From: Actinokineospora auranticolor
GTDB taxonomy: Bacteria > Actinomycetota > Actinomycetes > Mycobacteriales > Pseudonocardiaceae
Direction: 5' to 3'
DNA length: 64,000 bases
Assembly: GCF_002934265.1 (NCBI RefSeq)
Contig: NZ_PTIX01000008.1
Coordinates: forward strand, 124,001 to 188,000
A program made the translations under genes and the position numbers. Of this stretch, positions 1-27,900 are shown one piece after another. The notes under the pieces are model-generated. The model was not told the origin of the DNA, did not search any database, and was given only the letters and a program-made list of their open reading frames with translations. How positions within the stretch are numbered: position 1 is the stretch's first letter; every line of letters begins with the position of its first letter.

Positions 1-1397
1 ACCAGGCCCGCGAGGTCGAGCACCGGCGCGTCGGGGTCGATGTCGACGGCCTCGGCCAACCAGGTGCCGGGCACGATGTCGAGGTCCGCCCCCGACCGCA
101 GCACCGAGGTCAACGGGAAGCGGCCGGGGCCGAGTCGCCGGGCGAGTGCCCGGTTGGTCAGCCGGGTGGTCAGCTCCGCCTCGTGGGCGAGCAGGTCGAG
201 CACCGGGGCGACGGCGGTGGTGAGGTCGGCGGCCAGCTCGCCCCGCAGGCTCATCTCGACGGTGCCGACCGCGGCCTCGTGCACGATGACGCGGTCGTTG
301 TAGAACCGGCTCGTCGACGCCGGGCCCGCCGTCGGCGGGACGACCGCCTGGATCTCGTCCTGGATGCCGCGCTTGCGGTCGGGGTCGGCGTCGGGGTAGT
401 CGGCGAGCAGCGCGAGGACCCGGTCCACCAGGTCCAGCACCGGTCCGTCCACCCGCGACCGGAGCCAGCGCAGCGGGTCGACCTCGGTGGCGGGCGCGGC
501 GAGGTCGTGCGTCAGCCTGCCCGCGGCGACCGCGGCCCGGAACTCGGCGACCACCCGGTCGAGGTCGAGCCCCAACCGCCGCGCCAGTTCGGCCACGGTG
601 GCCTCCCCGTCGACCGCGTCGATCAGCGCCGAGCGCGGGTCGCTGACCCGGACCGGGCGCAGCGCGGTCTTGCGGCGCGGCACCAGCCCGCCGACGCGCT
701 CGTCGTCGGCGAGGACTGCGGCCGCGATCGCGTCGTGCACCCTGGCCGCGACGTGGGCCTGCCGGGCCGGGATGGCCCGGTGCCCCGACCAGGTCCACGT
801 GGACGGACCGGGGACCTCCGGGGACACCGTGGCGTAGTTGATGGGACCGAAGAAGCTCATCGTCTCGCTCTTCGTCGCCAGCCGTTGCGCGTAGGAGGCG
901 ATTTGCCTGCGCAGCCGAGAGCCCTTCGCGCCCCGGCCGAGGTCGCGGTACACCGACGGCGACGAGCACACCACCGCGTCCCCGAACCTGGGGTCGAGCC
1001 GGATCCGGTCGATCTCGGCGTCGACCCGGTCCCGGTCGGCCTGGTTCGCGAGTTCCGCGCGTTCGGTCAGCGCCGCGAGATGCTCGGTCAGCCGGTTCCA
1101 CTCCTGCCGCCACGCCTCGTCGATCGCCTCGGACGGCGGCAGGGGGCGCAGGTTGCGCACCTTGCTCTTGAGCCCCCTCGACAGGTTTCCGACCGGGCGC
1201 AGGGTCGCGCCGTGGGCGTGGGCCGACCGCGTGACCTCCAGGATCTCCCCGAGCACCTCGGCGCACGCGTGGTGCGCGAGCCCTTCGACGAGCTGCCAGG
1301 GGAATCCCGCGCTGCGCAGGACCAGCACCGGGAGCAGGCGCCACGGCACCTCGGCCACCGACTTCGGACCGCCGGGGGTCCATGCCTGTTCGGTCAT
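1..1397 (-). CDS. LanB-type (lantibiotic dehydratase N-terminal family) protein, 3' end cut by window
   Basis: About 465 residues are visible, starting at the ATG at 1397; the C-terminus lies left of the window. Around residue 177 it has the LanB-type segment KSETMSFFGP, matching KNETTSFFGP in the gene upstream, so the two are paralogues. Family members transfer aminoacyl groups from tRNA: classical LanB glutamylates Ser/Thr of a precursor, while PEARL relatives add an amino acid to a peptide C-terminus. The start overlaps the upstream stop as ATGA (1394-1397), and AAGGA lies just before it, so translation is coupled. Because the precursor of this operon lacks core Ser/Thr/Cys, I favour the PEARL role, but that is inference. 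Whether an elimination domain follows cannot be seen. Confidence 0.85.
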   Translation of the reverse strand, partial: MTEQAWTPGGPKSVAEVPWRLLPVLVLRSAGFPWQLVEGLAHHACAEVLGEILEVTRSAHAHGATLRPVGNLSRGLKSKVRNLRPLPPSEAIDEAWRQEWNRLTEHLAALTERAELANQADRDRVDAEIDRIRLDPRFGDAVVCSSPSVYRDLGRGAKGSRLRRQIASYAQRLATKSETMSFFGPINYATVSPEVPGPSTWTWSGHRAIPARQAHVAARVHDAIAAAVLADDERVGGLVPRRKTALRPVRVSDPRSALIDAVDGEATVAELARRLGLDLDRVVAEFRAAVAAGRLTHDLAAPATEVDPLRWLRSRVDGPVLDLVDRVLALLADYPDADPDRKRGIQDEIQAVVPPTAGPASTSRFYNDRVIVHEAAVGTVEMSLRGELAADLTTAVAPVLDLLAHEAELTTRLTNRALARRLGPGRFPLTSVLRSGADLDIVPGTWLAEAVDIDPDAPVLDLAGL

Positions 1398-3788: not shown

Positions 3789-5591
3789 TCAGTCCTGGAA
3801 GTTGATCTGGTCGAACGGCCGGTTGAGCTTGGTGCGCGGGACGGGCAGCAGGTCGAGCACGGCACTGCCCGCGGCGACCGCCCCGGCGAGCGCCGCGGCC
3901 CGGTCCGGGTGGGTGGTGCTCAGCGCCGCGGTCTCCGCGACCCCGGTCTCCCGCCCGGTGACCGCGCCGGTGCCCGCCAGGGCGAGCGCGATCCGGTACG
4001 GGTCGCCGACCCGCCGCGCGGCGGCCTCGGCCAGCTCGAAGTGCTCGCCCGCGACCGCGGTCGCGCCCTGGCGGGCGTGCCAGGTGCCCAGCTCCAGGCG
4101 GACCTCGCACTCGTGGAAGTCGTCGGTGAGGGCGGCGGCACCGGCCAGCGTGTTGTCGAGGTCGGCGAGCGCGCCCGCGGTGTCACCGAGCCGCAGCCGC
4201 AGCCCGCCCGCCCGGTACGAGTGGTGCTTGCCGAACCCGGCGTTGGCCGATCCGGTGGCCTGCTTGAACTTCTCCCACGTCGCCAGCGCGGAGTCGGTCT
4301 TGTCGGCCTTCTCCTGGAGCACGGAGATGTTGGAGTAGAGGTTGATCCGCAGGTGCGCCGAGCTCGCGTCGGTGAGACCGTCGAGACAGGCCAGTGCCTG
4401 CTTCTCGTGCTCGAAGGCGGCGACCAGCCTGCGTTCGGCGAACAGCGTCAGGCCGCGCAGGTTGTGCAGCCAGCCGCGTTCCCGGCGGACGCTGTCCGGC
4501 TCGCCGTCGGTGGCCCGCACCGCGGCGAACCCCTGGTCCAGCTCGGCGACGGCCTCGGCGAGGCGGAGCTTGCGCTTGGACAGGGTCAGCGCGGTGTACA
4601 GGTGGGACTGGGCGAGCAGCTCGGGCGAGAGCCCGGGGGCGTCGGCCCGCATGGCGCGGAAGTAGCCGAGCGCGGCGTCCTGGTCGCCGCGGAACCCGGC
4701 CTGGATGCCGAGCACCTTGAGCAGGAACGCGCGCAGGTCGTCGACCCCGCGCAGCACGACGGTCTCGAACTCGATGGCCTCGGCGAGGCCGTCCGCGGTC
4801 CGGGACCGGGCCAGCACCTCCGGGACGGCGGCGTCCGGCAGCCCGCGCAGCAGCCCGACCGCGGCCTTGGCGACGATCGCCATCCCCTCCCAATTGGCGG
4901 AGAAGAACGCGCACCTGGCGTAGGCCAGCGCCGCGGCGAGCCGGTCGACCCTGGCGGTGTCGGGGTCGGTCGCCACGAAGTACAGCTCGCCCTCGCGGGA
5001 CGCGGGCGGGAACGCGGTGTCCGGCAGGCCCGCGAGGTCGAACTCGAGGTCGTCGACCCCGACCGGGACACCCGCCCGGCGCAGGCAGCGGGCCCGCTCG
5101 TGCCGGTAGTCGGCGTGCGGCCCGGCCGGGATCCGGATCTTGCGCGGGTCGACCAGACCGAGTCGGGCACCCGGGGTGACACCGGCCCGCTCCACGGCGA
5201 GCATGACCCCGCGCAAGGAGGAGAGGTCGGTCCCGCCCGCGCCGCGGAGCAGGACGGGACGGTCGAGCTCGACCGACGCCGCGCACAGCGCCGTCGCCGC
5301 GACCGACAGGACGCGGTAGACCTGCTCGCTCTCCCGGTGCAGCCGCCGTTCGGACGCGGCCAGCGCGATGTCGTCCAGCACCGGGGCGTCCGGGCACTCG
5401 CCGGGGAACAGCTGGGCCCACTCGGCCCCGTGGCGGGCCGGGAGGTCACCGAAGGTCGCTCCCTCGGCGCGCAGCGCCGACAGCGCGTAGCGCAGGCCGG
5501 TGTAGGAGGCGGCCGGGCCGTAGTCGAGGTCGAGTTCGACGGCACCCGACCCGAGGGACACCCCCCGGTCGGGCTGGAGGGAGACGGTCAT
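3789..5591 (-). CDS. TPR-like helical-repeat protein of a LanB operon, 600 aa
   Basis: From about residue 290 to 560 the protein is a run of paired amphipathic helices typical of TPR solenoids, for example LAQSHLYTALTLSKRKLRLA, LHNLRGLTLFAERRLVAAFE and ATWEKFKQ. The N-terminal 280 residues match no family I recognise; they contain several Cys but no clear catalytic motif. There is no signal peptide or membrane segment, so it should be cytosolic. The ATG at 5591 overlaps the stop of the precursor peptide as ATGA (5588-5591), which sets the start and couples translation of the two. Position between the peptide and the LanB pair suggests a scaffold or leader-binding role in peptide modification. 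That role is inference; no biochemical function is assigned. Confidence 0.85.
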   Translation of the reverse strand: MTVSLQPDRGVSLGSGAVELDLDYGPAASYTGLRYALSALRAEGATFGDLPARHGAEWAQLFPGECPDAPVLDDIALAASERRLHRESEQVYRVLSVAATALCAASVELDRPVLLRGAGGTDLSSLRGVMLAVERAGVTPGARLGLVDPRKIRIPAGPHADYRHERARCLRRAGVPVGVDDLEFDLAGLPDTAFPPASREGELYFVATDPDTARVDRLAAALAYARCAFFSANWEGMAIVAKAAVGLLRGLPDAAVPEVLARSRTADGLAEAIEFETVVLRGVDDLRAFLLKVLGIQAGFRGDQDAALGYFRAMRADAPGLSPELLAQSHLYTALTLSKRKLRLAEAVAELDQGFAAVRATDGEPDSVRRERGWLHNLRGLTLFAERRLVAAFEHEKQALACLDGLTDASSAHLRINLYSNISVLQEKADKTDSALATWEKFKQATGSANAGFGKHHSYRAGGLRLRLGDTAGALADLDNTLAGAAALTDDFHECEVRLELGTWHARQGATAVAGEHFELAEAAARRVGDPYRIALALAGTGAVTGRETGVAETAALSTTHPDRAAALAGAVAAGSAVLDLLPVPRTKLNRPFDQINFQD

Positions 5592-5839
5592 CGGCGGGGG
5601 CCGATCCACGCGAGAGCAAGTGGGGCGATCTTGTTCTCGACCTCGTCGAGGTCGAAGTCGACATCGTCGAGGTCGTCCAAGTCCTCCAGTTCGGCCGCCT
5701 CGGCCGCCTCGCTGCCCGCGGGCTCGGCCGCCTGCTCCGGGGCGGTGGCCAGCACACCGAGGTCGGGGCCGGGCGCACCCCCGTCCGGCTGGTCGGCGCT
5801 GTGCTCCGGGGCCCCGGGTGAGGTCTGTTGCTCGGACAT
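5588..5839 (-). CDS. Acidic precursor/scaffold peptide with FxLD-like leader, 83 aa
   Basis: The peptide is rich in Ala, Pro, Glu and Asp, then has a strongly acidic stretch (residues 51-67) carrying FDLD at 62-65, and ends ENKIAPLALAWIGPRR. FxLD motifs mark leaders of a group of actinobacterial class I lanthipeptide-like precursors. Here, however, the last 40 residues contain no Ser, Thr or Cys, and the whole peptide has no Cys, so dehydration and lanthionine formation are excluded. A GGGAG ribosome site lies about 5 nt before the ATG at 5839. An upstream in-frame ATG exists but has no such site. It is first in the operon with the TPR protein and two LanBs. I infer a scaffold peptide for C-terminal aminoacylation (PEARL chemistry); the Trp-containing tail is the expected working end. 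Confidence 0.8.
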   Translation of the reverse strand: MSEQQTSPGAPEHSADQPDGGAPGPDLGVLATAPEQAAEPAGSEAAEAAELEDLDDLDDVDFDLDEVENKIAPLALAWIGPRR

Positions 5840-5919: not shown

Positions 5920-6053
5920 CTAATCGATGATGGGCATCCAGAAGCTCCCCTGGGTGCAGCATATGGAGCCACCTCTCGGGCCGTCAAGCAAACTGCCGCT
6001 CGGCAACCGCGAATGCCTGGGTGAGGAACTGCTCCCGAACGGCGTTATCTTTG

Positions 6054-6683: not shown

Positions 6684-7112
6684 TCAGCGGCGGAATGGGA
6701 TGCGTTCTTGGTCCGGGCGATCGGACCCGGAGCGGTCGGCGAGCCCCTGTTCCGCCCGGATCGCCGCGGCGGCGACCACGGCCGCCGACCAGTCCAGCAG
6801 CTCCCGCTCACCGAGCCGGTCGAGCACCGCGTGCTGGATCCGCTTCCACAACCCCGCCTTGGTCCACGCGGCGAACCGGCGGTGCGCGGTCGGCACGCTG
6901 ACCCCGAACCGCGTCGGCAACTCCCGCCACCCGCACCCGCTGGTCAGCACGTACACGACGGCCGTGAACACCACCCGGTCGTTCAACCCCGCCGTCCCCC
7001 CACCCTGGGGGCGCGCGGCGAACCCCGGGACCAACGGCTCGACCAACTCCCACAACGCGTCCGGCACCAACCGCGCCGACAAGGCATCGACCACGACACC
7101 GATCACCCCCAA
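6684..7112 (-). pseudogene. IS5-family transposase remnant (N-terminal part only)
   Basis: Residues 10-120 are the recognisable N-terminal domain of IS5-type transposases, with WELVEPLVPGF, LTSGCGWRELP and the conserved DWS(A/R)AVV block near the end. After about residue 120 (near 6750) the similarity stops, the frame ends in an unrelated RIPFRR tail, and the catalytic DDE half is absent in all frames. It could be the OrfA of a two-ORF element that has lost OrfB, but either way it is not functional. I could not identify terminal inverted repeats. It sits between the LanB operon and the MFS gene and probably marks an old insertion or deletion boundary. Confidence 0.75.
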
Positions 7113-7201: not shown

Positions 7202-8797
7202 TCACCAACCTCCCGGACTTGCCGCCGCCTCGGCCCGTTCTGCCGCCCTGTTGGGCAGCCAGAGCGCGGTGAGCACGGAGGTCACGAGCATCACCCCGGC
7301 CCCGACCAGCGCGGCCACCGAGATGCCCGAGAGGAACGCCGCCCGCGCCGCGGCCATGAGCGGTTCGCCCGCGGCGCCCATCTCCGCCGCGGTGAGCGCG
7401 GCCAGCGGCAGCGACTGGGCGGCGGTCTCGGCCACCGCGGGGGCCACCACCGTGGTCGCGGCCAGCTCGTTCCCGAACACCGCGGCCATGATGCTGCCCA
7501 GCAGCGCGACACCGAGTCCGGCGCCGAGCTCGAACGAGGTCTCCTGGATGGCCGCGGCCCCGCCCGCGCGGGCGGGCGGGGCGCTGGTCATGATCGCCTG
7601 GGACCCGGAGGTGACCGCGACGCTGGCGCCGAACCCGACCCCGATGAAGCCGACCACGATCGCCCCGTCGACCACCCAGCCCGGCACGTCGGCGCCGATC
7701 AGCGAGAGCACGGCCAACGACACCGCGATCACCCCGAAGCAGCCGCTCAGGGTCAGGCGGGTGCCCCAGTTCCGCACCATCTTCTCGGTCAGCGGCGCGG
7801 CGACGAGGCTGGCCACGGCCATCGGCAGCAGCCACAGACCGGTCTGCAGCGTGGTGAACCCGCGCAGGATCTGGAAGTACTGCGCCAGGAAGAACAGCAG
7901 CCCGAAGAACCCGAAGAACGACAGCAGCACGGCCAGGGTCGCCGCGGTGAACCTGGGCGCGCGGAACAGCGAGAGGTCGAGCAGCGGGTGCGCCAGCTTG
8001 CCCTGCCGCCGGACGAAGACCCAGGCGAGGACCAGCCCGAGCGCCAGCGCGGGCACCGCGGTCGGCGCGCCGATCCCGTGCCCGGCGAGTTCCTTGATGC
8101 CGAAGACGACGCCGAGCACCGCGCCCATCGAGAGCACCACGCTGATCGGGTCGAAGCGCCCCGGCGACGGGTCCCGGGACTCCGGGACGTACCGCGCCGA
8201 GAGGAGCAGCGCGACGACGACCACCGGGAGCCCGACCAGGAACACCGAGCCCCACCAGAACACCCGCAGCATCGCGCCCGCGACGATCGGCCCGATCACC
8301 GAGCCGACCGCGGCCGTGGCCGACCACAGCCCGATCGCGACGCCGCGCTCCCGCGGGTCGGTGAACACCGTGCGGATGATCGACAGCGTGGCGGGCATGA
8401 TCATCGCCCCGCCGACGGCCCGCAGCACCCGGGCCGCGATGAGCACCGCGACCGAGCCCGCGAACGCGGCGACCAGCGACGCGACGCCGAACAGGGCCAG
8501 ACCGAGCAGGAAGAACCGCTTGCGCCCGAAGCGGTCGGCACCGGTGCCCGCGGTCACCAGCAACCCGGCGACGACGAGCGAGTAGCTGTCGACGATCCAC
8601 AGCAACCCGGTCGCGCCGGGGCGCAGCGACTCGGCGATCGCGGGCAGCGCCACGTTGAGGATCGTGTTGTCCATCGCCGCGAGCAGCAGACCGCTGCACA
8701 TCAACGCCAGCACCAGCCAGCGGCGGTCGGTCGCCGGTCGGGTCGCGGTCCCGCTGACCGGGTCGGCCGCGGGGGGTGGAACAGGTGCTTCGGTCAT
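7202..8797 (-). CDS. MFS multidrug exporter, DHA2 (EmrB/QacA) type, 531 aa
   Basis: A proton-driven efflux pump of the inner membrane. The length and about 14 hydrophobic segments fit the DHA2 drug:H+ antiporter family. The first helix region has the family signature ALMCSGLLLAAMDNTILNVALP, followed by the loop motif GTGADRFGRKR (motif A) and later PIVAGAML (motif C-like region). The ATG at 8797 is preferred because it follows the Pro-poor intergenic region holding the operators; upstream in-frame starts would cover the palindromes. It is transcribed divergently from a TetR gene 121 bp away, the usual arrangement for a drug-induced pump and its repressor. The substrate is unknown; export of a product of a neighbouring pathway is possible but unproven. 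Confidence 0.93.
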   Translation of the reverse strand: MTEAPVPPPAADPVSGTATRPATDRRWLVLALMCSGLLLAAMDNTILNVALPAIAESLRPGATGLLWIVDSYSLVVAGLLVTAGTGADRFGRKRFFLLGLALFGVASLVAAFAGSVAVLIAARVLRAVGGAMIMPATLSIIRTVFTDPRERGVAIGLWSATAAVGSVIGPIVAGAMLRVFWWGSVFLVGLPVVVVALLLSARYVPESRDPSPGRFDPISVVLSMGAVLGVVFGIKELAGHGIGAPTAVPALALGLVLAWVFVRRQGKLAHPLLDLSLFRAPRFTAATLAVLLSFFGFFGLLFFLAQYFQILRGFTTLQTGLWLLPMAVASLVAAPLTEKMVRNWGTRLTLSGCFGVIAVSLAVLSLIGADVPGWVVDGAIVVGFIGVGFGASVAVTSGSQAIMTSAPPARAGGAAAIQETSFELGAGLGVALLGSIMAAVFGNELAATTVVAPAVAETAAQSLPLAALTAAEMGAAGEPLMAAARAAFLSGISVAALVGAGVMLVTSVLTALWLPNRAAERAEAAASPGGW

Positions 8798-8842
8798 GAA
8801 CCAAACCTCGCCGAGAGTCGGGATGCCGTTACGGTACGAACG

Positions 8843-8860
8843 ACTGTATCGAAATACGGT
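8843..8860. promoter_or_regulatory. Palindromic operator candidate for the TetR regulator
   Basis: ACTGTATCGAAATACGGT has arms ACYGTAT / ATACRGT around a 4-bp centre, with 6 of 7 arm positions matching. It lies between the divergent MFS and TetR genes, 46 bp upstream of the MFS start, as expected for TetR autoregulation and pump repression. Confidence 0.55.
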
Positions 8861-8864
8861 TGGA

Positions 8865-8877
8865 CCGTACCGTACGG
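8865..8877. promoter_or_regulatory. Second palindrome in the MFS/TetR intergenic region
   Basis: CCGTACCGTACGG is a perfect 6-bp inverted repeat around one C. It sits just upstream of the -35 box of the TetR promoter. An outer inverted repeat, ACGGTACG at 8831-8838 and CGTACCGT at 8867-8874, overlaps it, so the region is dense in symmetric sites. Confidence 0.5.
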
Positions 8878-8881
8878 CGGG

Positions 8882-8911
8882 TTGGCTCGGGAGGGTGCGC
8901 CGTCCTAGACT
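8882..8911 (+). promoter_or_regulatory. Promoter of the TetR gene (leaderless transcript)
   Basis: TTGGCT (8882-8887) and TAGACT (8906-8911) are separated by 18 bp, matching the actinobacterial housekeeping sigma pattern. The ATG at 8919 begins 7 nt after the -10 box, so the mRNA would start at or next to the start codon. Confidence 0.65.
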
Positions 8912-8918
8912 CGTTCGG

Positions 8919-9569
8919 ATGAGCTCGGGCACGACAGCACCAGGTCCGGCGGCGGGCAGTGCCTACCCGCTGCGCAGGCGCGCGGGTGGCAAGCGGCGCG
9001 ACGAGGTGCTCGACCACGTGATCGCCGTGATCGCCGACCGGGGGTACGACCGGACCAGGTTCACCGACGTGGCCAAGGTGTCCAAGGTCGCGGTGAGCAC
9101 CCTGCAGTTCCACTTCGGTTCGCACGAGGACATGCTCATCGAGGCGCTGCACCGGTCCACCGAGCGCGAGGTCAGCGCGATGGAGGCCGTGGTCGGCCCG
9201 GACGACCCGCCCTGGCGGACCCTGACCGCCCTGGTCGACCGCGCCCTGGACCCGGAAGCCCGGGTCACCGGCCGCATGCTGCTCGAGTTCTGGCACGCCT
9301 GCGCCAGGGACCCGGAGCTGCGCGACGTCGGCGCGGTCCTGTGCGACCGCTACCGCCAGCCGTTCGTGGCCGCCATCCGCGCAGGCATCGATCGCGGCGA
9401 CTTCACCACCGACAGCGACCCCGTAGACCTCGTCACGGTCCTCAACGGCATCCTCGAAGGCCTCATCATCCCCCGCGTCCTGGACCACGACTACTACGAC
9501 CCGCCGAAGGTCCGCGCGATCGTCCTGCGCGCGCTGGCAGCCCTGCTCGGGGTACCGCCCACCACCTGA
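8919..9569 (+). CDS. TetR-family transcriptional regulator, 216 aa
   Basis: The N-terminal helix-turn-helix region (about residues 24-70) reads DEVLDHVIAVIADRGYDRTR followed by FTDVAKVSKVAVSTLQFHFG, a standard TetR DNA-binding fold in which F-H-F-G replaces the common Y-Y-H-F. The C-terminal part is an all-helical ligand-binding domain of normal length. The ATG at 8919 directly follows a well-formed promoter with no leader, which decides the start against longer in-frame options that would run through the operators. It lies divergent to the MFS exporter, so it most likely represses both genes and is released by the pump substrate or a related compound. The ligand cannot be predicted. Confidence 0.93.
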   Translation: MSSGTTAPGPAAGSAYPLRRRAGGKRRDEVLDHVIAVIADRGYDRTRFTDVAKVSKVAVSTLQFHFGSHEDMLIEALHRSTEREVSAMEAVVGPDDPPWRTLTALVDRALDPEARVTGRMLLEFWHACARDPELRDVGAVLCDRYRQPFVAAIRAGIDRGDFTTDSDPVDLVTVLNGILEGLIIPRVLDHDYYDPPKVRAIVLRALAALLGVPPTT

Positions 9570-15786: not shown

Positions 15787-18700
15787 TTAGCGGAGTGCCG
15801 CGAGGCGGTCGGCGATGTGGGTCGCGGCGCCTTCCAGGAGGGTGTCGGCGATGGCCTCCACCGTGCGGGCCTGCCACGGGTCCAGGGACGTGCCCTCGAC
15901 CACCTGGTTGAACGCGCCCATCGCGGGTCCGCAGTGCACCAGGAAGTCCACTCGGGAACGGGTGTCGCCCGCCAGGGCCGACCGGAGGCCGCGGTCGAAG
16001 TAGCCCCGGAAGAGCTTCGCCAGGTCGGCCTTCCCGTCCCCGGTGGGGGTCGGGGCGTCCACCCCGCCCAGGTACTTGGTGAGCACCTGGGCGCGGGTGT
16101 CGCTGTCCAATTCGGACAGGGCGCCGTGCCTGCGCCACAGTTCGTGCAGGCGGGATGCCCTGGCCGGGAAGAACAGTCCGCGCTTGAGGTAGCGGGCGCG
16201 GGCGCCCAGTTCGAACAGGGGGCCCCACGGGGCTGTCTCGATGTCGTACTCGTGGGCTTGGTGCAGGAGGTCCTTCACGGCGGGGCTGGTGGCCGCCTCC
16301 ACCGAGCACTGGTTGACCGAGCCGGTGAGGATGAAGTCCGCGCCGAGCAGGAACGCCGCCGCTGCCGCCGCCGGGCTGCCGATGCCGCCCGCGCAGCCGA
16401 TGTGGACGTGGTGGCCGGACGGGGTGGTCGAGCGGTCCCGCAGCCCGCGGACCGCGGGCAGGAGGGTGAGCAGGTCCGCGTTGGCGGTGACCCAGCCACC
16501 GTCGGCCTCCACGCAGAGGTCGTCGGCCACGGGCCTGGTCGCGGCGGCCGCGGCTTCCGCCTCGGTGACCGCGCCGTCGGCGACCAGGCGGCGGACCAGG
16601 TGCTCGGGCGGGGGCGCCAGGAACTCGGCCGCGATGTCGGTGCGGGCCACCTTGGCCAGGATCCGGCCGCCCTTGAGGCGGAACTTGACCAGGGCCGGGG
16701 TGAGCACCGGGAAACCCGAGGCCTCGACCAGGTCCACGCCGTGCCGGAGCAGGACGTCGACCAGGCCGAGTTCCTCCTCCGGGGCGCCGTGGCGGTAGAG
16801 GACGTTCGCGCCGAACGCGCCGGAGAGGCCGAGGTCGCCGACCAGGCCGCGCACCTCGTGCTCGACCTCCGCCGGTGCCAGTCCGCCGGTGCCGAGGAAA
16901 CCGAGCAGGCCCGCCTTGGCCAGGGAACCCAGCATCTCCCGGCCGGAGACCCCGCCGTAGAGGGAACCCGCCAGGTAGGCCCGGCGCAGGCCGTACCGCT
17001 CGCGGAAGGTGCGGGCGCCGAGCGAGTCCGCGTCCGGCGCGGCAGGCACGGCAGGTACCGCGGCAGCGGGAGCGGTGGCGGCGGGAACAGCGGTGGCGGG
17101 GAGGGCAGGGGCGGCCAGCGGGTCGGCGGCCGCCCTGATCTTGGCGACCAGCTTGGTCAGCACCTGCCCCGGTCCTAACTCGACGAACTCGAACTCGCCC
17201 AGGCCCATCAGCGAGCGGACCGTCTCGGTCCAGCGCACCGGGGCGGCGATCTGGGCGGTCAGGGTCTTGGCCACCTCGCCGGGCCGGTACGGCTTGGCGT
17301 CGATGTTGGCCAGGACCGGGATCACCGGGTCCGCCAGCGGGAAGCCCGCCAGGAACGGGGCGAACTCCTCGGCGGTGCCGCGCATGTGGCGGGAGTGGAA
17401 GGGGGCGCTCACGTGCAGGCGGACCGCGCGGGCGCCCGCGGCCTCGAACGCCGCGCAGGCGCGGCCGATCTCCTCGTCCGGGCCGGAGAGGACGAACTGG
17501 TCGGGCGCGTTGTGGTTGGCCAGGTCCAGGCCGGTGAGGCCCGCTTCGGCCAGCACGCGGGTGATCGTGGGCTCGTCGGTGCCGACGACGGCCGCCATCG
17601 AGCCGCCGCCCGCCGCCGCCATCAGCGCGCCGCGCCGGTGGACGAGGCGCAGACCGGTTTCGAAGTCGAACACGCCCGCGGCGAACAGGGCCACGTACTC
17701 GCCGAGGCTGTGGCCGACCAGGTAGTCCGGCGGCGTGGGGTCCGCGGCTCGGCGGTCCAGCCAGGTCAGCGCGCTCACCACGTACAGGGCGGGCTGGGTG
17801 AACTCGGTCCTGGCCAGCTCGCGGCGCGGGTCGTCGACGCACAGCTCGCGGATCGAGTAGCCGAGCACGCGGTCGGCGGTGGCGGTGTGCTCGGGGTAGC
17901 GCTCGAACAACTCCGCGCCCATGCCCCGCCGCTGCGAGCCCTGACCTGGGAATCCGTAGACCTTCACGACGTGCGCCTTCCTCGCGGGGGCTGGGGGGAC
18001 GGGGGCCGGGTCGGCCGCGGCGTCGCGCGCGCGGTCCACCACCCCGGGGTCGTGCCCGAACGGGCTGAACAGGGGCATCGACCAGGAACGGGAACCCGAC
18101 CGCGGGGTGTTGCGGGCGAAGTTGTGCAGGGTGCCCCCCGGGCCGAGGTCCAGGTACAGGAACTCGCCCCGGTCGGCCAGCGCGGCCATCGCCGCGCCGA
18201 ACTCGATGGGGGCGCGGACCACGCGGGCGAAGTGGTCGGCGGTCGGCCGGTCCACCACCGAGCCGTCCACACAGGACACCCAGGGCACCTGGGCCGGGGC
18301 GAAGCGCACGGCCCGCAGCGCGTCGCGGTTCTCCCGCAGCACACCGTCCATCAGCCGCGAGTGGTAGCCGTGCTCCACCGGCACCCGTTGGTGCAGCACG
18401 TCCGCGGCGCGCAGTTGCGCCTCCGCGCGGCCGATCGCCTCGGTGGTGCCCGCGACGACGAAGTGCCCGGGGTAGTTGCGGGCGGCCACCTCGCAGTCGG
18501 CCAGGGCGGGGGCCAGGTCGTGCGCCTCGGGTCCGGCCAGCACCGCCAGCATCCCGCCCGGCGGTGCCGAGCGCAGGCAGCGGGCCTGGTCGACCAGCAG
18601 CCGCAGGCAGTCCGCGGCGCTCAGGCAGCCCGCCACGACCGCGGCCGCGTACTCGCCGAGGCTGCTGCCCAGCAGGTACGCGGGGCGCACCCCGGCCGCC

Positions 18701-18975
18701 CGCAGCATCTCCGCCGCCGCCAGCTCGACCATCACGATGGCCGGGTGGGTCAGCCGCGTGTCGGTGAACAGCTCGTCCCGCCGCTTGCCCGGGTCGAACA
18801 CCGCGGCCAGCACCGACTCGCCGAGTTCGGCCCGCACCGTGGCGTCGTGCCGGTCCAGCGCCGCCCGGAACACCGCGTTCGAGTCGTAGAGGTCCCGGCC
18901 CATCCGGTAGTACTGCGACCCCTGCCCGGAGAACATGAAGACGACGGGCAGCCGCTCCCGCTGCGCCGGGGTCAC
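15787..18975 (-). CDS. Trans-acting AT-AT-ER protein of a trans-AT PKS, 1062 aa
   Basis: Supplies acyl units in trans to AT-less PKS modules. Domain 1 (residues 10-300) is an acyltransferase fold with FSGQGSQ and nucleophile S105 in GSSLGE, but the conserved Arg that holds the malonyl carboxylate is replaced (VDQARCL instead of HRRGALM). This suggests an acyl hydrolase that clears stalled chains. Domain 2 (about 325-600) has FPGQGSQ, GHSLGEY near 421, HRRGALM and APFHSRHM, and is the malonyl-CoA transferase. Domain 3 (about 640-1062) is an FMN-dependent PfaD-type enoyl reductase with the HIGCAGGIGSP loop near 860. The GTG at 18975 overlaps the upstream stop as GTGA. It is the last gene of the operon. 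The visible modules need no enoyl reduction, so the ER target is elsewhere or absent. Confidence 0.95.
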   Translation of the reverse strand: MTPAQRERLPVVFMFSGQGSQYYRMGRDLYDSNAVFRAALDRHDATVRAELGESVLAAVFDPGKRRDELFTDTRLTHPAIVMVELAAAEMLRAAGVRPAYLLGSSLGEYAAAVVAGCLSAADCLRLLVDQARCLRSAPPGGMLAVLAGPEAHDLAPALADCEVAARNYPGHFVVAGTTEAIGRAEAQLRAADVLHQRVPVEHGYHSRLMDGVLRENRDALRAVRFAPAQVPWVSCVDGSVVDRPTADHFARVVRAPIEFGAAMAALADRGEFLYLDLGPGGTLHNFARNTPRSGSRSWSMPLFSPFGHDPGVVDRARDAAADPAPVPPAPARKAHVVKVYGFPGQGSQRRGMGAELFERYPEHTATADRVLGYSIRELCVDDPRRELARTEFTQPALYVVSALTWLDRRAADPTPPDYLVGHSLGEYVALFAAGVFDFETGLRLVHRRGALMAAAGGGSMAAVVGTDEPTITRVLAEAGLTGLDLANHNAPDQFVLSGPDEEIGRACAAFEAAGARAVRLHVSAPFHSRHMRGTAEEFAPFLAGFPLADPVIPVLANIDAKPYRPGEVAKTLTAQIAAPVRWTETVRSLMGLGEFEFVELGPGQVLTKLVAKIRAAADPLAAPALPATAVPAATAPAAAVPAVPAAPDADSLGARTFRERYGLRRAYLAGSLYGGVSGREMLGSLAKAGLLGFLGTGGLAPAEVEHEVRGLVGDLGLSGAFGANVLYRHGAPEEELGLVDVLLRHGVDLVEASGFPVLTPALVKFRLKGGRILAKVARTDIAAEFLAPPPEHLVRRLVADGAVTEAEAAAAATRPVADDLCVEADGGWVTANADLLTLLPAVRGLRDRSTTPSGHHVHIGCAGGIGSPAAAAAAFLLGADFILTGSVNQCSVEAATSPAVKDLLHQAHEYDIETAPWGPLFELGARARYLKRGLFFPARASRLHELWRRHGALSELDSDTRAQVLTKYLGGVDAPTPTGDGKADLAKLFRGYFDRGLRSALAGDTRSRVDFLVHCGPAMGAFNQVVEGTSLDPWQARTVEAIADTLLEGAATHIADRLAALR

Positions 18976-21900
18976 CGGTACGCGTCCCAGAACATGCCGC
19001 CTGCCGGGACCTCCACCGGGGCCGGGGCGGGGGTGACCGGCTCGTCCCAGAAGAGGCCCTGCGATTCGGGGGCAGCCGAGCCGCGGATGACCACCCGGCG
19101 GTCGAACCGCGGTTCGGGCAGCGGCGCGCGGCCGGTGTGGCCCGCCGGGGCCGGGGCGAGCAGGACGTGGGCGTTGGTGCCGCCGTCGGCGAAGCAGTTC
19201 AGCGCGGCGACCCCGGCCTCGCGCGGCCACGCCGCTGCCCGCCGCGGGAAGTACAGCGGCGAGGCGTCCAGGTCGTAGTGCGCGAGCGGCTGCTGCCCGG
19301 AGCGGAACGGCACCTGCTCGCCGTGGCTGAGCATCAACACCACCTTGATGAACGCGGCGATGCCCTCGGCGGCGAGCGGGTGGCCGATGTTCGGCTTCAC
19401 CGAGCCCAGCGCCACCGGCTGCGCGGACCCGGTCCGGTAGACCGATTCCACCGCCTTGAGCTCCAGCAGGTCGGTGATCACCGAGCCGGAACCGTTGGCC
19501 TCCACCCAGCCGACGTCGGCCGCGGCGTGCCCGCTGCGCGCCAGCGCCCGCAGCATGACGTCCTTCTGCGCCTGGAGGTTCGGCGTGGCCGGGCCCGCGG
19601 TGCGGCCGTCGTTGTTGATCGCGATGCCGGACAGCACCGCCAGCACCCGGTCGCCGTCGGCGCGGGCCCGCTCCAGCGGCTTGAGCACCACCACGCCGAC
19701 GCCCTCGCCGAGCACCAGACCCGCCGCGCGGCTGTCGAACACGTGGAACTCCGCACCCGGGTTGAGCAGGCCGCGCTTGCCGAACACCCGGTGGGCGCGG
19801 TCGTCGGCGAGCAGGCTCACCCCGCCGACCACCGCCGCCTCCAGGTCACCCGCGCGCAGCGCCTGGACGGCCATGTCCATCGCCACCAGCGCCGAGGAGC
19901 ACGCGGTGTCGACCACCACGCTCGGGCCGCGGAAGTCGAAGAACTGGGACACGTTGGCGGACAGGTAGTTCTGCCCGGTCACCACGACCGGGTTGCGGGA
20001 GCGGTCGAGCCGGTCCGCGTCGGCGGTGTGGGTGTTGCGGCCACCGACGTAGACGCCGACCTCGCGGCCCTTGAGGTCCTCGGGCCGGTACCCGGCGTCG
20101 TGCACCGCCCGGCTGACCTCCTCCAGCAGCAGCAGCGCCTGCGGGTCCATCGCCACCACGTCGGACTCGTCGAGCAGGAAGGCCTCCGGGTCGAACCGGA
20201 GCACCTCGTCGAGCAGCCCGGCGTGGAAGTCCACCGGCCTGCCGAACCGCGCGGCCGGGACCGGTCGCAGCGCGGTGTCCCCGCCGCGCAGGAGCCGCCA
20301 GTAGTCGGCCGCGGACGGTGCCTGCGGGAACCGGCAGGACAGACCGACGACCGCGATCTCGGTGCTCCGCCGGACCTCGGAGACCACCGCCGGGGTCACC
20401 GGGGCGGTGACCGGGCTGGGCGCGGCGGTCGGGCTGGGCGCAGCGGTGTCGGTGCCGAACTCGGCCCCCAACCGCTCCGGGAACTCCGCGGCGAGGTAGC
20501 TCGCGAACCCGTCCGTGGTCGGGTGCTCCAGCAGCGCCGACGGGTCGACCGACACGTCGAGCCGCTTGGCCACCGTCTGCACCAGCTGCGACACCATGAT
20601 CGAGTCCAGCCCGTAGTCGTGCACCGGCACGTCCCCGGCCAGCTTGGCCCGGTCGAACCGCAGTTCGGTGGCCAGTTGGTCCAGCAGCCACGAGGACACC
20701 GCGGCCACCGCGGCACCCGTCGCCACCGGTGCCTGGACCCGCGCGGCCGGTGCGGCCGGTGCGGGTGCGGTCGGGGTGTGCGGGTGGCGGTGGGTCAGCC
20801 GCTCCGGGTGCCAGTCGGCACCGGGCCGGACCACCGCGGGCAGCACCACCCGGGCACCGGAGGCCAGCGCCCGCTCCAGCAGCGCCAGGCCCTGCCGGTC
20901 GGACAGCGCGGCCAGCCCCGAGGCCAGGTAGGCGGCACTGCGCGCCTCGCCCATGCCGGTGTCGCGCCAGCTCGGCCACTGCACGCTGACGATCGGCAGC
21001 CCGTGCGGGCGCGCCTCCGCCACGGCGTCGAGGTAGCCGTTGGCCATCGCGTAGTCGCTCTGCCCCACGGCCAGCTGCGGGATGGCCGCGGCGACCGAGG
21101 AGTACACGACGAACAGGCTCAGCGGCTCGTCGCGGAAGCAGTCGACGAGGGCGTCCACGCCGAACACCTTGGGGCCGAGCACCCGGCCGATCGCGTCGGC
21201 GGGCTTGCGGACGAACGCGGGGTTCTCGAAGTCGGTCGTGCCCGCGCTGTGCACCACACCGCCGACCGGGCCCAGCCGCCGCTTGACCTCGGCCAGCGCC
21301 TTGGCCACCTGCTCGCGCTCCTCCAGCGCGACGGCCAGCACCTCCACCTGCACGCCTTGGTCGGCCAGCTGCGCCAACGGCCGCAGCTTGCGGCCCAGCG
21401 CGGTGTCCTCGGCGATGTGCGCCGCCCACCGCTCGCGCGGGGGCAGCTCCTCGCGGCCGGCCAGCACCAGCTTGCGGACGCCGTGCTCGGCGACGAAGTG
21501 CCGGGCGGTCAGCAGCCCGATGCCGCGCGTGCCGCCGGTCACCCAGAGCACGTGGTCGGCCGGGAACCGCACCGGGTTACCGGCGCTCGCGGTCAGTTCG
21601 CGCAGTTCGGCGGTGTGCCTGGCACCGTCCCGATAGGACACTTCGGCGGGGTCGCCGTCGGCGCGCAGCTCCTCGACCACGATCAGGCACAGCTCGTCGT
21701 CGCCCGCGCCGCCCACGGCCACGTGCCGCGACCGGAGCTGCCGGTACTCGCTCTGCAACATCCGGTACAGGCCCGTGCGGGCGGCTCCGCCGAGCGAGCC
21801 GTCGCGGGAGACCAGCAGTGCGGTCGCCTCCCGGCGGCCCAGGTCGACCAGTCGTTGCAGCCAGGCGACCCAGGTCGGCAGCAGGGCGTGGGACCGCTCG

Positions 21901-24900
21901 CCGCAGCCCGCGAGGTCGACCACCGCGTCGTAGGCGTCCCACCGGGTGTCCGCGGCGGCCAGGTCGGCCTCAAGCCTGCCCGGGTCGAGCACCTCGGCGC
22001 CGGGCAGCGCGGCGGCCACCCTCGCGGCGAGCGCCTCGGTGCCGGGCGCGGCGAGCACGGCGGTGCGGGTCGGGGCGGCGCCGCGGCCGGTGATCGGCGC
22101 GGGCACCCAGTGCCGGGTCAGCAGCGCCCCGGCGTCCTCGGCCACCGGTGCGGCGCCCAGCGCGGCCAGCTCGGCGTCCGCGGCGGGCAGCCAGACCCGG
22201 TCGCCGCCGAACGGGTAGCCGGGCAGCGCGGTGCGGGCGGGCCGGGTCGGGTGCAGCGCCGACCAGTCCACCCGCTGCCCGGCCAGCCAGGCCGCGGCGA
22301 ACGCGTCCGGGTCGGCGGCGGGGGCCTCGCCCGGCGCGGGCCTGCGCGGGTCCACCACGCCGGTCCGGGTCCGCGCGCCGGTGGTCCCGGCGGCGAACCG
22401 GTCCAGCTCCGCGACCAGCTCGGGCAGCGCGTCGAACCGGACCGCCAGCCGGTGCGCCATCGCCTCGCGGCCGGATTGCAGCGTCCACGCCACCTCGGCC
22501 GGGGCCGGGTCGGCGCCGCGCAGGTGGTCGGCCAGCCTGCGGGCCTGGGCCACCAGCCGGTCGGCGTCGCGGGCGGACAGCACCGCCACCTGCGGCCCGG
22601 CCGGGGCCGGGGCGGCAGGCCCGGCGGTGAACTCCTGGAGGATCACGTGGGCGTTGGTGCCACCCGCGCCGAACGAGCTGACGCCCGCCGTGCGCGGTCG
22701 CGCGGCACCGCCCGCGCCCACCCGCGACGGCCACGGGGCCAGCTCCCGCTGCACCTCGAACGGGGTGGCGTCGAAATCGATGTTCGGGTTCAGCCGGTCG
22801 GCGTGCAGGGACGGGGCCAGCTCGCCGTGGCGCAGTTGCAGCAGCACCTTGGTCACCGCCGCGATGCCCGCCGCGGACTCGGCGTGCCCGATGTTCGACT
22901 TCACCGAGCCGATCGGCAGCCGCTCGGGGTTGTCCCCGCCGAACGCGCGCAGCATGCCGTTGACCTCCACCGGGTCGCCCAGCGCGGTGCCGGTGCCGTG
23001 CGCCTCCAGGTAGTCCAGGTCGGTCGGGCGCAGCCCGGCCCGGTCCAGCGCGGTGCGCACCAGGTCGCCCTGGGCCTCGGGGTTGGGCACGCTGTAGCCC
23101 GCCCCGGCGCCGCCGTGGTTGACCGCGGTCGCCTTGACCACCGCCAGCACCCGGTCGCCGTCGGCCAGCGCCCGGTCCAGCCGCTTGAGCAGCACCGCGC
23201 CGGAGCCCTCGGCGGGCACGTAGCCGGTGCCGCCCTCGCCGAAGCTGCGGCAGCGGCCGTCGGCGGCCAGGAAGCCGCGCTGCGCCAGCTGCAGGAACTT
23301 CACCGGGTGGCTGGAGATGTTGACCCCGCCCGCGACGGCCACCTCGCAGTCGCCGTTGCCGATCGCCAGGCACGCCTGGTGGATGGTGACCAGCGCCGAG
23401 GAGCACATCGTGTCCAGCGCGACGCTGGGGCCGGTGAAGTTGTAGAAGTAGGACACCCGGTTGGCCACCGAGGCGTAGGAGGAGGAGGTGGCGAAACCCT
23501 TGCCCGCCAACGCGTCCTGCACCCCGTAGAGCTGGTAGTGGCCGTACATCATCCCGACGAACACGCCGGTCCGGCTGCCGCGCAACCGCTCGCGGGTGTA
23601 GCCGGCGTCCTCCAGCAGGTGCCACACCGTCTCCAGGAACACCCGCTCCTGCGGGTCGGTGTGCTCGGCCTCGATCTGCGACATCCGGAAGAACAGCGGG
23701 TCGAACCGGTCCGCGCCGCGCACGAAACCGCCCCACTTGCCGTAGGTCTTGCCGGTGGCGGTCCGGTCCGGGTCGTGGAACACGGCGTGGTCCCAGCGCT
23801 CGCCGGGGATCTCCTCGACGCTGTCCACGCCCGCGCGCAGGTTGCGCCAGAACTCGTCCACGTCGTCGGCGCCGGGGTAGCGGCCCGCCACGCCGATGAT
23901 CGCGATGTCGGCCCGTTCGGCCACCGGTTCGACCTGGGCGCTCACCTCGACCACCGGTGTGGCCGCGGGGAGCGCGACCTGGGCGGGTTCGGTCGCGGTG
24001 GGTTCCGCGCCGGGCGCGGTGGCGAAGGCGGCCGGGTGCGCGGCGGCCAAGTGGTCGGCCAGGGCGCGCACGCTGACGTACTCGAACAGCAGCGTCTTCG
24101 ACAGCGGCCCCAGGTGCTCCTCCAGCCGCCGCGCCACGCTCATGGTGATCAGCGAGTCGACGCCGTAGTGCTCGAACGGCTCGGTCACGACGATCTCCGG
24201 CGCGGGCAGTTTCAGCTCCTCGGCGAGGATCCGCAGCACCAGTTCCTCCGCGGCGGGCGGGTTGTCCGCGGGCGCCGGGGCAGCGAGCGGCCGGTCGGCG
24301 GGACCGCCGGTCAGCGCGGCGAGCACCTTCTCCGGCTCGCCCGGGGTCAGCAGCAGCGCCGGGGCGGTGGTGCCCAGCGCCCGGTCGAGCGCGGCCAGGC
24401 CCTGGGCCGTGCGCACCGGCCGCATCCCCAGCACCCGGCCCATGTACTCGATCGCGGGCTCGTCGACGCGCATCGCCCCGTCCGCCCACACCGGCCAGGC
24501 GGCGGCCAGCGTGCGGCCCCGGCGGGCACCGAGGGCGCGCAGGCGCTCCCGGCGGTCGGCGAAGTGGTCGAGGAAGGCGTTGGCGAACGCGTAGTCGGTC
24601 TGGCCCGCGTTGCCGAAGGCCGCGGCGGCCGAGGAGAACGCCACGAAGTAGTCCAGCGGCTCGTCCCTGGTCGCCTCGTCGAGCAGCGCGGCGCCGCGCA
24701 CCTTGGCGGCCAGCACGGCGTCGGCGGCGGCCCGGTCCTTGCCCGCGAGCAGCCCGTCGCGCAGCACCCCGGCCGCGTGCACGACTCCGCGCACCGGCCC
24801 GAACACCAGCCGGGCCTCGTCGAGCAGCGCCCGCACCCCGGCCGGGTCGGACACGTCGGCGAGCACGACCCGAGCGCCGATCGCCGCCGCCCGCTCCCGC

Positions 24901-27900
24901 GCCCGGGTACCCGGTTCGGTGCGCGCGGCCAGCACCAGTCCGCCCGAGGTGGCCCCGGCGGCCCGGCGCGCGCCCGCCACGTGCTCGGCGATCAGCAGAC
25001 CCAGCGCACCGGTGCCACCGGTGATCACGTGCGCGCCCGCCCCGGTGAACACCGGCTCGCCCACCTCCGGCAGCACCACCCGGCGCCACGACCGGCGGGA
25101 CCGGCCCGCCCCGTCCACGCGGACCTCGACATCGTCGGAGATCCGCAGGTCGGCGAGCACGGCGGTGGTGAAGTCGACCTCGGCGGCCACCGCCAGCACC
25201 CCGGCGTCGATGGCGGGGTGCTCCTGGCGCACCGACCGCAGGAAGGCGGCCATCGCCGGGTGCGCCGGGGAAGTGGCGGGCTCGCGGTGGGCGAAGCGGT
25301 AGTGCAGGGCACCCCCGCGCTCCCGCTGCCACGCCCGGAAGAAGTCCGCCGCGGCGTGGAAGGCGCCCGCCACGGCCTCGGTGGCGTCGGGGGACTCGCC
25401 TGCCAGGTGCAGGACGTGCGCCGTGGCGCCGGTCAGCCCGCGCACCGCCGCCGTGGCGTCGAACCGGTCGTCGACCGCGATCCGCCGCGCGTCGACACCC
25501 TCCGCGGCCAGCGCCGCCACCGCCGCGTGGCCGTGCGCGCCCGCGTCCAGCACCAGCACCGGACCGGTCAGCTCGCGGTCGGCGGTTCCGGCGGGCTCCC
25601 AGGTCGGCTCGAACGCGGACACCACGTCGGCGCCCCGCCGCGGCACCGCCCGCAGGGTGAACCCCTCGACCGCTACCAGCACCTCCCCGTCGGCGTCGAG
25701 CAGCCGCACGTCGAAGCGCAGCACCCCGGTCGGGGTGGCGCCCGCGGCGGGCAGCGCGTGGGCGTACACCTCGGCGGGCAGCGCGCCGAACACCCGCACC
25801 GACCCGAGGGAGAACGGCAGGTACGGCACCGGGGACGCCGGGTCGCCCGCGCCGGGCGCCAGCCTGCCCGCGGCCTGGAGCGCGGCGTCGAGCAGGGACG
25901 GGTGCAGCACGTACGCGCCCGCGTCGGCGCGGCGCGCCTCGGGCAGCCGGAGCGCGGCGAGCACCTCGCCCTCGCCCAGCGCCAGCTCGTGGATCGCCCG
26001 GAAGCTGGGGCCGTAGTCGAACCCGAGCCGGTCGAACGCGGCGTAGCACTCCCGCGCGCCGGACACCTCCGGGCACCGGGCCCGCACGGCGGCGAGGTCG
26101 ACCCGAGCGGGCCGATCGGCGGGATCGGTGCCGAAGGTGCCGCTCGCGTGCACGGCCTCGCCCGCCACCTCGAACGACGACCCGCGCACCGTGACCCGCA
26201 ACGGCGGCCCACCCGCCCGGACCGGGGCGGCCCAGGTCAGGTCGTGCACCCGGCGGACCGGGGCGCCGGTGGCCAGCTCACCGGCCAGCCGCGCCATCTC
26301 CAGGTACGCCACCCCGGCCAGCACCGGCGCACCGCCCACGACGTGCTCGCCGAGGAAGAACTCCGCACCGGTCAACGCCTTGGTGAAGGTGTGGGTGTCC
26401 CCGGTGGTCTCCAGCGAGTCCAGCAGGGTCGGGTGCAGCGGTCGTGGGCGCACGGGATCGACCCAGTGCCGGGTCCGGGCGAACGGGTAGGTCGGCAGGT
26501 GCACCCGGCGGCGCCGGGCCCCCGCGTGCAGCACCCGCCAGTCGACCTCGGCGCCGGACAGCCACGCCGTCACCGCGGCGGCAGGGTCTGCCGTCGCGGT
26601 GACGGACCCGGCGTCCCGATCGTGGTCGACCCGCGCGGTGCGCACCGCGGACGGGCGACCCGCCAGGTGCTCCACCAGCTCGGCGCGCAGGTCGGCGGCG
26701 TGGGCGCTGACCACGGCGAGCCGGTGCGCCATCGGCTCCCGGCCCACCTGCAACGTGAACGCCAGGTCGGCGGCCGACACCCGGTGCTCGCCGAGGTGGT
26801 CGGCCAGCCGGGCGGCGGCGGCCCGCAGCGCGTCGGCGTCGCGGGCGGAGAGCACGAACGCCTGCTCGGCCCCGGTGCCCCGCCCCTGCTCGGACGACAT
26901 GTCCGGTCCCTCCATCAGGTATTCCTCCAGCACCACGTGCGCGTTCGCCCCGCCGAAGCCGAACGAGCTGACCCCACCGCGGCGCGGCAGCTCCGCCCCG
27001 GCGGCGTCGGTGCGCCGGGGCCACGCCCGCGCGGTCGCGGCCACCTCGAACGGCCCGCCCGCCAGGTCCAGGTACGGGTTCCGCTCGCGGAAGTGCAGGC
27101 TGGCCGGGATGGTGCCCTCGCGCAGCGCCAGCACCACCTTGAACAGCCCGGCCACCCCCGCGGCGGCCTCCAGGTGGCCGATGTTGGTCTTCACCGAGCC
27201 GAGCACCGGACCGGCGGCGGGCGCCGGGGCGTCGCCGCGCAGCCTGCGGAACGCGCCGCTGAGGCCCTCGGTCTCGATCGGGTCGCCGAGCGCGGTGCCG
27301 GTGCCGTGCGCCTCGATGTAGCCCACGGTGTCCAGCGGCACGTCCGCCGCCCGGTAGGCCTCGACCAGCAGGTCGGCCTGGGCGTCCGGGTTGGGCGCGG
27401 TCAGCGAGGTGGTCCGGCCGCCGTGGTTGACCGCCACCGCGCGGATCACCGCGTGCGGGGCGTCGCCGTCGAGCACCGCCGCGTCGGCGGGCTTGAGCAC
27501 GACCACCCCGGCGCCCTCGCCGCGCACGTACCCGTCGGCGCGGCTGTCGAAGGCCTTGCAGCGCCCGTCCGGGCTGAGCATCTCGCCCTGGCTGAGCGCC
27601 TCGAACACCGAGGGCGACAGCATCAGGCTGACCCCGCCCGCGATGGCCAGGTCGCAGGTGCCGTCGCGCAGCGCCGCGCACGCCTGGTGCACCGCGGTCA
27701 GCGCGCCGGAGCAGGCGGTGTCCACCGCGATCGACGGGCCGCGCAGGTCCAGCAGGTAGGACACCCGGTTCGGGATGATCGACAGCGCCGCGCCGGTGAG
27801 CGTGTGCCCCTCGTTGCCGCGGCCTGCCGCGCGCTGCACGTCCAGGTAGTCGGAGTTGGTCGCGGACAGGAACACCCCGACCCGCTTGCCCGCCAGGTCC

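Follow-up and report, generated by a model that had tools for sequence, protein, structure and literature searches.

Actinokineospora auranticolor encodes an 83-aa peptide that is very probably a reusable scaffold for the tRNA-dependent building of a lymphostin-family alkaloid, and the surrounding locus is in all likelihood a lymphostin-type (lym-type) pearlin cluster producing lymphostin or a near relative. The window, i.e. the whole stretch of 64,000 nucleotides that was analyzed, corresponds to positions 124001-188000 of contig C8, and the cluster continues to its left (Table 1), where the earlier note had recommended looking and where further LanB-like proteins (PEARLs), TldD/TldE, a glycine oxidase, an M20 peptidase, a methyltransferase and an NRPS-PKS are encoded. 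That note had proposed, from the window, a PEARL scaffold of the ammosamide kind in place of a lanthipeptide precursor, a reading borne out by the peptide family NF033737, four PEARL clades, colinearity with Salinispora and a contig devoid of the LanB elimination domain PF14028. Gene content, gene order, family membership and motifs were observed directly; from homology we infer every reaction, the amino acid of each PEARL and the exact product, and from gene order, residue spacing and family names the orthology to Amm, Bha and reference lym proteins. This kind of pathway is already known, and no NF033737 peptide was found in the sampled relatives of the host genome. With 80 relatives searched, and likewise with a class-wide draw of 394 genomes, two samples that overlap, the family matched the host genome alone (0 of 79 and 0 of 393 others, respectively).

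Table 1. Features of the cluster and its border in the window and on contig C8.
Feature	Window	Contig C8	Strand	Basis
MFS transporter, possible exporter, cluster membership uncertain	7202..8932		-	PF07690; two of seven stretches compared have a similar MFS gene
Scaffold (precursor) peptide, AmmA/BhaA type, 83 aa	5588..5839		-	NF033737, 55.9 bits, residues 52-77
Conserved recognition segment, codons 52-77, ending in PLALA (expected growing end Ala77)	5609..5686	129609-129686	-	NF033737 match; alignment A4
Variable cap WIGPRR, codons 78-83	5591..5608		-	Computed from ORF coordinates; variability among precursors
Probable AmmC1/BhaC1-type FMN-dependent Trp trihydroxylase with TPR domain, 600 aa	3789..5591	127789-129591	-	Position, identity, residue spacing, TPR matches
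PEARL P4, 796 aa	1394..3784	125394-127784	-	PF04738 in genome profile search; orthologue clade 100/100
PEARL P3, 757 aa in total (N-terminal part in window, continuing left to C8:123124)	1..1397	123124-125397	-	Genome profile search, position, clade
Amm10-like protein		121754-123127	-	
PEARL P2		119532-121757	-	PF04738 in genome profile search; orthologue clade
TldD		118351-119535	-	PF19289
TldE-like		117303-118358	-	Position; 40-42% identity to the counterparts in Salinispora and MJM8645; no Pfam match
Glycine-oxidase-like		116240-117325	-	Pfam/NCBIfam
Glyoxalase-like, PF13468		115554-116243	-	Pfam
M20 peptidase		114316 (or start about 100 bases inside)-115599	+	PF01546, TIGR01891
PEARL P1		111914-114286	-	PF04738 in genome profile search and hmmscan; orthologue clade
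Methyltransferase		111078-111917	-	Pfam/NCBIfam
NRPS-PKS		104219-111058	-	Pfam domains
SsuE-like FMN reductase		103646-104209	-	SsuE model 175.2 vs cut-off 164.05

The peptide matches NF033737 (Amm_Lyn_leader, 'ammosamide/lymphostin RiPP family protein') well above the cut-off of 30 bits (E-value 3.2e-15). This is its sole NCBIfam match at E<=1, a threshold at which no FxLD lanthipeptide family model was reported; of the acidic, FxLD-like leader described earlier, the acidity holds and the FxLD likeness is a resemblance only. As also described earlier, the peptide contains no Cys, and its six Ser/Thr residues lie at positions 2, 6, 7, 14, 32 and 43, leaving residues 44-83 free of both. Its start was placed at ATG 5839, which is preceded by GGGAG and was for that reason preferred to an in-frame ATG at 5962 that would give 124 aa, and its stop codon overlaps the start codon of the 600-aa gene in the sequence ATGA. 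An alignment with precursors of PEARL pathways, as had been suggested (A4, n=12), comprised the A. auranticolor peptide, those of nine relatives and two sequences taken from PMC9850906, AmmA*-Trp and BhaA-Ala-Trp; all 12 match NF033737 and share an identical PLALA. The amm cluster of Streptomyces sp. CNR-698 likewise encodes a scaffold peptide with DLDEVE[SN]KIAPLALA (PMC9850906), and the bha precursor of Alkalihalobacillus (Bacillus) halodurans C-125 contains EEIEDKVAPLAL and has the same NF033737 match. Unlike the A. auranticolor peptide, BhaA is capless and lacks the last Ala, which is added by a PEARL (PMC11962472).

One conserved-pattern scan of the genome_contigs collection returned 57 stretches, nine of which encode a precursor relative (five Salinispora, three Streptomyces and one Actinomadura); these are at least nine loci, as the single peptide pattern would miss AmmA-like ESK forms, and the starts of the other precursors and PEARLs were our choice. 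All 14 genes from the peptide to the NRPS-PKS occur in the same order in each of Salinispora oceanensis, S. vitiensis and Streptomyces MJM8645, with 40-74% identity for the 13 enzymes and, for the peptide, 65-79% within its matched portion. Three further Salinispora show the first six genes within 10-kb flanks, LS1784 is represented by two short contig pieces only, and TldD is present in the genomes of all nine relatives. The Salinispora loci were taken as lym because lym has been reported in nine Salinispora species (PMC8609351). Apart from sequence divergence, the A. auranticolor cluster differs from them in its cap and in its FMN reductase, which may lie outside the cluster since it sits at the far end and fits the ordinary SsuE model above cut-off; a weakly similar reductase is found beside the precursor in four of five relatives and after the glyoxalase gene in the other. 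Actinomadura craniellae (L020, L025, L026) has 12 of the 14 genes, but M20 and P1 lie across the peptide gene from the rest and no match to the methyltransferase or NRPS-PKS was found in 53 kb; its core possibly leads to a different pyrroloquinoline product. Streptomyces xanthophaeus (L019 with L027, L028) is more distant, with 37-41% identity in the seven enzymes matched and, in 53 kb at 1e-5, no match to the Amm10-like, TldE, glyoxalase, M20, methyltransferase and NRPS-PKS queries; this diverged cluster contains three further PEARL-like ORFs, giving seven, and a Trp-less precursor. The structure prediction for the Amm10-like protein (S. oceanensis copy) was poor (pLDDT 62.9), and a PDB search found no match at E<=0.001.

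The residues after PLALA are WIGPRR in A. auranticolor, SNEAIQWRR in Salinispora L012, L013 and L016, SNEAILWRR in L014, TSEAIQWRR in L015, TTEPSRW in two Streptomyces (L017, L018) and WAEASR in Actinomadura (L020), whereas the S. xanthophaeus precursor stops exactly at PLALA and encodes no Trp. Because these residues vary between precursors, WIGPRR looks like a disposable cap. Among the nine capped precursors, seven end in Arg and two in Trp, and every cap holds both residues. The Trp-adding PEARL of the bha pathway acts on a peptide with a PLALA end (PMC11962472), and BhaC1 is described as showing little to no modification of a Trp that is followed by another residue (PMC9850906), which argues that the cap should leave before the cycle and that the growing end is to be read as Ala77 and not Arg83. 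We expect Ala77 of PLALA to be the growing end, with WIGPRR removed first. The earlier proposal that the tail is the growing end was in this respect half right. A tentative idea, to which we give well under even weight, is that in many precursors of the family a disposable, fast-changing cap bars the PEARLs until a protease bares PLALA, and that TldD/TldE may remove the cap and thereby start the cycle, because Amm12/13 prefers a C-terminal Arg (PMC12424672) and the nine caps mostly end in Arg and all hold Trp and Arg. The comparison points to PLALA as the working end, with variable residues after it, and is thereby relevant to the initial priming of a reusable scaffold. Cap removal strictly in whole dipeptides was considered and rejected, as it fits the six-residue caps (A. 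auranticolor, Actinomadura) and not those of nine (five Salinispora) or seven residues (two Streptomyces); the rejection does not extend to other modes of cutting.

Alternatively, the encoded Trp78 could itself be the modified residue after trimming of IGPRR. It directly follows PLALA in the A. auranticolor and Actinomadura precursors, and the loss of five residues would create the same end as addition by a PEARL. We consider this unlikely, since Trp is the seventh residue after PLALA in five Salinispora and two Streptomyces precursors and is not encoded in S. xanthophaeus, the ammosamide peptide is functional after its encoded Trp is mutated or deleted according to a review (PMC9505594), and a reused scaffold would need Trp from elsewhere in later rounds. 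Trimming to Trp78 is compatible with the preferred reading, addition of Trp to Ala77 by a PEARL, and could serve the first round.

The 600-aa protein is very probably, judged from its sequence, an FMN-dependent Trp trihydroxylase of the AmmC1/BhaC1 type and not a mere adaptor, a role that the earlier note, which listed a TPR-like protein, had not recognized. Two Salinispora and two Streptomyces encode proteins of 64-66% identity at the equivalent position, and TPR matches span residues 188-577 of its structure model (pLDDT 85.9). K339, N421 and K588 are identical in 10 of 10 sequences, with a spacing (82/167) close to that of the Lys/Asn/Lys at the substrate end of AmmC1 (K350, N432 and K602; PMC9850906) of 82/170, as judged by spacing alone. 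When the invariant Lys and Asn were placed at random in 20,000 trials, such a trio arose in 2.7% of them, and the spacing therefore supports, but does not prove, an AmmC1-type role. A PDB sequence search returned nothing useful, and no match was found in PHROGs. An adaptor function, with Trp oxidized by another enzyme, would be compatible with a lymphostin pathway and has a model in AmmC2, the TPR protein of the amm cluster described without assigned chemistry (PMC12424672), but is quite unlikely, since no other TPR-type protein was found in the cluster and this one lies in the place expected of AmmC1 and has the AmmC1-like spacing. A 41% relative of the TPR enzyme is encoded on a plasmid of Kitasatospora sp. 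NBC_00039 (L033), in an operon with three genes named lantibiotic dehydratase, similar-sized hypothetical proteins, an oxidoreductase and two TldD-type genes.

The NRPS-PKS contains Pfam matches to AMP-binding, two PP-binding, ketosynthase (KS), acyltransferase (AT), NAD_binding_4 and GNAT domains, and the carrier serines, the KS motifs DTACS and EAHGTGT and the AT motif GHSIGE are present. Lymphostin carries an acetyl group. The AT xAFHS motif is TAFHS in A. auranticolor and HAFHS in the three other proteins compared, and xAFHS is usually malonyl-specific; the reductase motif is TGVTG in A. auranticolor and TGATG in the three others. For A5, A8 and the second KS histidine, the patterns used had no match in any of the four proteins and were uninformative. 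Full-length identity to the NRPS-PKS of two Salinispora and MJM8645 is 52.7-54.1%, that of the methyltransferase to its counterparts is 58-60%, and both genes occupy the same place in all three loci. LymB is described as a methyltransferase acting on an aldehyde intermediate to yield lymphostin's methyl vinyl ether (PMC10127204), a role that fits the combination of an NRPS-PKS with reductase and a stand-alone methyltransferase. The four PEARLs, probable TPR flavoenzyme, glycine oxidase, TldD/E and M20 dipeptidase are shared with the amm cluster (PMC12424672, PMC9850906), and because these core genes, described for ammosamide (PMC12424672), are common to both pathways, the product could be ammosamide-type or another pyrroloiminoquinone, as the Actinomadura craniellae core, with no match to either additional gene in 53 kb, would also allow. 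For A. auranticolor this is very unlikely, as the NRPS-PKS and LymB-like methyltransferase are both present and placed as in Salinispora and MJM8645 and, unlike in the amm cluster, no halogenase, asparagine synthase or amidotransferase was found among the cluster genes scanned (leftward to C8:103646). Lymphostin or a near relative is the preferred product.

The genome profile search placed PF04738 on four C8 ORFs, although P3 and P4 pass the cut-off only with neighbouring matches added; against this, hmmscan reported it for P1 only and not for P4, P2 or the P3 fragment. Two LanB-family proteins, as counted earlier, do stand beside the peptide, but the cluster total is four, with two wholly left of the window. 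The four share 23-30% identity among themselves, 36-61% with their positional counterparts and 54-58% with those of Salinispora by tblastn. A tree of 27 sequences from A. auranticolor and five of the nine relatives (all but L013-L015 and LS1784; the P3 of S. xanthophaeus lacks its N-terminus) resolves four clades, each 100/100 and each with one A. auranticolor member. The residues D532, E787 and R789 (P4 numbering) are invariant in all 27 sequences, with at most two gaps allowed, and are spaced similarly (a comparison of spacing only) to the ATP-site residues Asp542, Glu801 and Arg803 of TglB (PMC11117183). If the amm genes lie in the order that their names and numbers in PMC12424672 imply, gene order suggests AmmB1 (Leu), AmmB2 (Trp), AmmB3 (Gly) and AmmB4 (Arg) as the respective counterparts of P4, P3, P2 and P1. 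Assigning the Arg-specific PEARL by a clade-specific acidic residue was tried and set aside: P1 has Asp532 in six of six sequences, compared to His in P2, Ala/Thr in P3 and Tyr in P4, and six other acidic columns are P1-specific. The Asp532 column looks like a selectivity position from the alignment; for AmmB4, the published residue is Glu581 (PMC12424672). A PDB sequence search with P4 returned nothing useful. The amino acid choice of PEARLs is still hard to predict, and a lym-type cluster at a useful distance from those of Salinispora helps to separate conserved from variable positions.

Although the LanB-like proteins resemble PF04738 and the genome holds PF04738 and PF14028 matches together on contig C25, a split-LanB lanthipeptide or thiopeptide pathway, in which these proteins would glutamylate Ser/Thr of some peptide and a partner would eliminate the glutamate, is extremely unlikely given a peptide without Cys and without Ser/Thr in its last 40 residues, a single PF14028 match in the genome that is on C25 and not on C8, no space for another precursor between the operon genes and a gene order identical to that of the Salinispora loci. 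The earlier note had named a second Ser/Thr/Cys-rich precursor in the operon and LanB glutamylation/elimination activity on a nearby peptide as observations that would speak against a PEARL scaffold; the operon genes overlap or sit within about 130 bases of each other, which leaves no room for such a precursor between them, and no elimination domain lies near the peptide. The C-terminal Ser/Thr and Cys of class I lanthipeptides are absent from the peptide, as is the elimination domain from the contig. On contig C25, at about 81057-84322, the PF04738 and PF14028 matches lie close together in different open frames and represent a LanB, perhaps split; a true lanthipeptide or thiopeptide pathway may therefore exist there.

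The analogous enzymes of the ammosamide and bha pathways have been proven elsewhere (PMC12424672, PMC11117183, PMC9850906, PMC11962472), and by this analogy the PEARL scaffold pathway in A. auranticolor would begin with removal of the encoded cap, leaving ...KIAPLALA. A PEARL, perhaps P3 by gene order, would join Trp from Trp-tRNA to Ala77, and the TPR flavoenzyme would grip the acidic leader and convert the indole of this Trp to a hydroxyquinone by trihydroxylation. Amino groups would then be placed on the ring from aminoacyl-tRNAs by two PEARLs together with the glycine oxidase, while a flavin reductase would set the redox state. The fourth PEARL is expected to append a further C-terminal residue (Arg in the case of ammosamide), which makes the peptide competent for release of a dipeptide by TldD/TldE. 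From this dipeptide the M20 dipeptidase would free the modified Trp, closing to a pyrroloquinoline acid, with the scaffold being reused. The NRPS-PKS (A-PCP-KS-AT-ACP-reductase-GNAT) would load this acid, add one malonyl unit and release the product reductively. Methyl vinyl ether formation by the LymB-like methyltransferase, possibly along with acetylation of an amine by the GNAT domain, would give lymphostin or a near relative.

PMC12424672 describes lymphostin and ammosamide-ester clusters as lacking amm15 (PF13468) and amm16. A gene with 59-65% identity to the A. auranticolor PF13468 gene lies directly after the glycine oxidase gene in S. oceanensis, S. vitiensis, MJM8645 and Actinomadura, and Pfam confirmed PF13468 in all three scanned (S. 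oceanensis, MJM8645 and Actinomadura; e.g. L021:6400-7065, with equivalents in L023 and L025). The lym-type loci hold a glyoxalase-like gene of a family treated as absent there by that source, and this gene is a candidate ortholog of Amm15.

On the other side of the peptide gene, an IS4/5-type transposase domain (DUF4096) is encoded at 6684-7112 (-), between the upstream region of the peptide and the MFS transporter gene. Further into the window, 15787-63881 (-) contains very large PKS/NRPS genes, including three ketosynthase stretches with no acyltransferase listed at 18972-29993 (-) and, at 15787-19230 (-), two acyltransferase stretches, for which the fabD model exceeds its cut-off, together with a PfaD-like match of 401.7 bits (below the cut-off of 449.25). 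The region has the look of a trans-AT polyketide cluster adjacent to the lym-type cluster.
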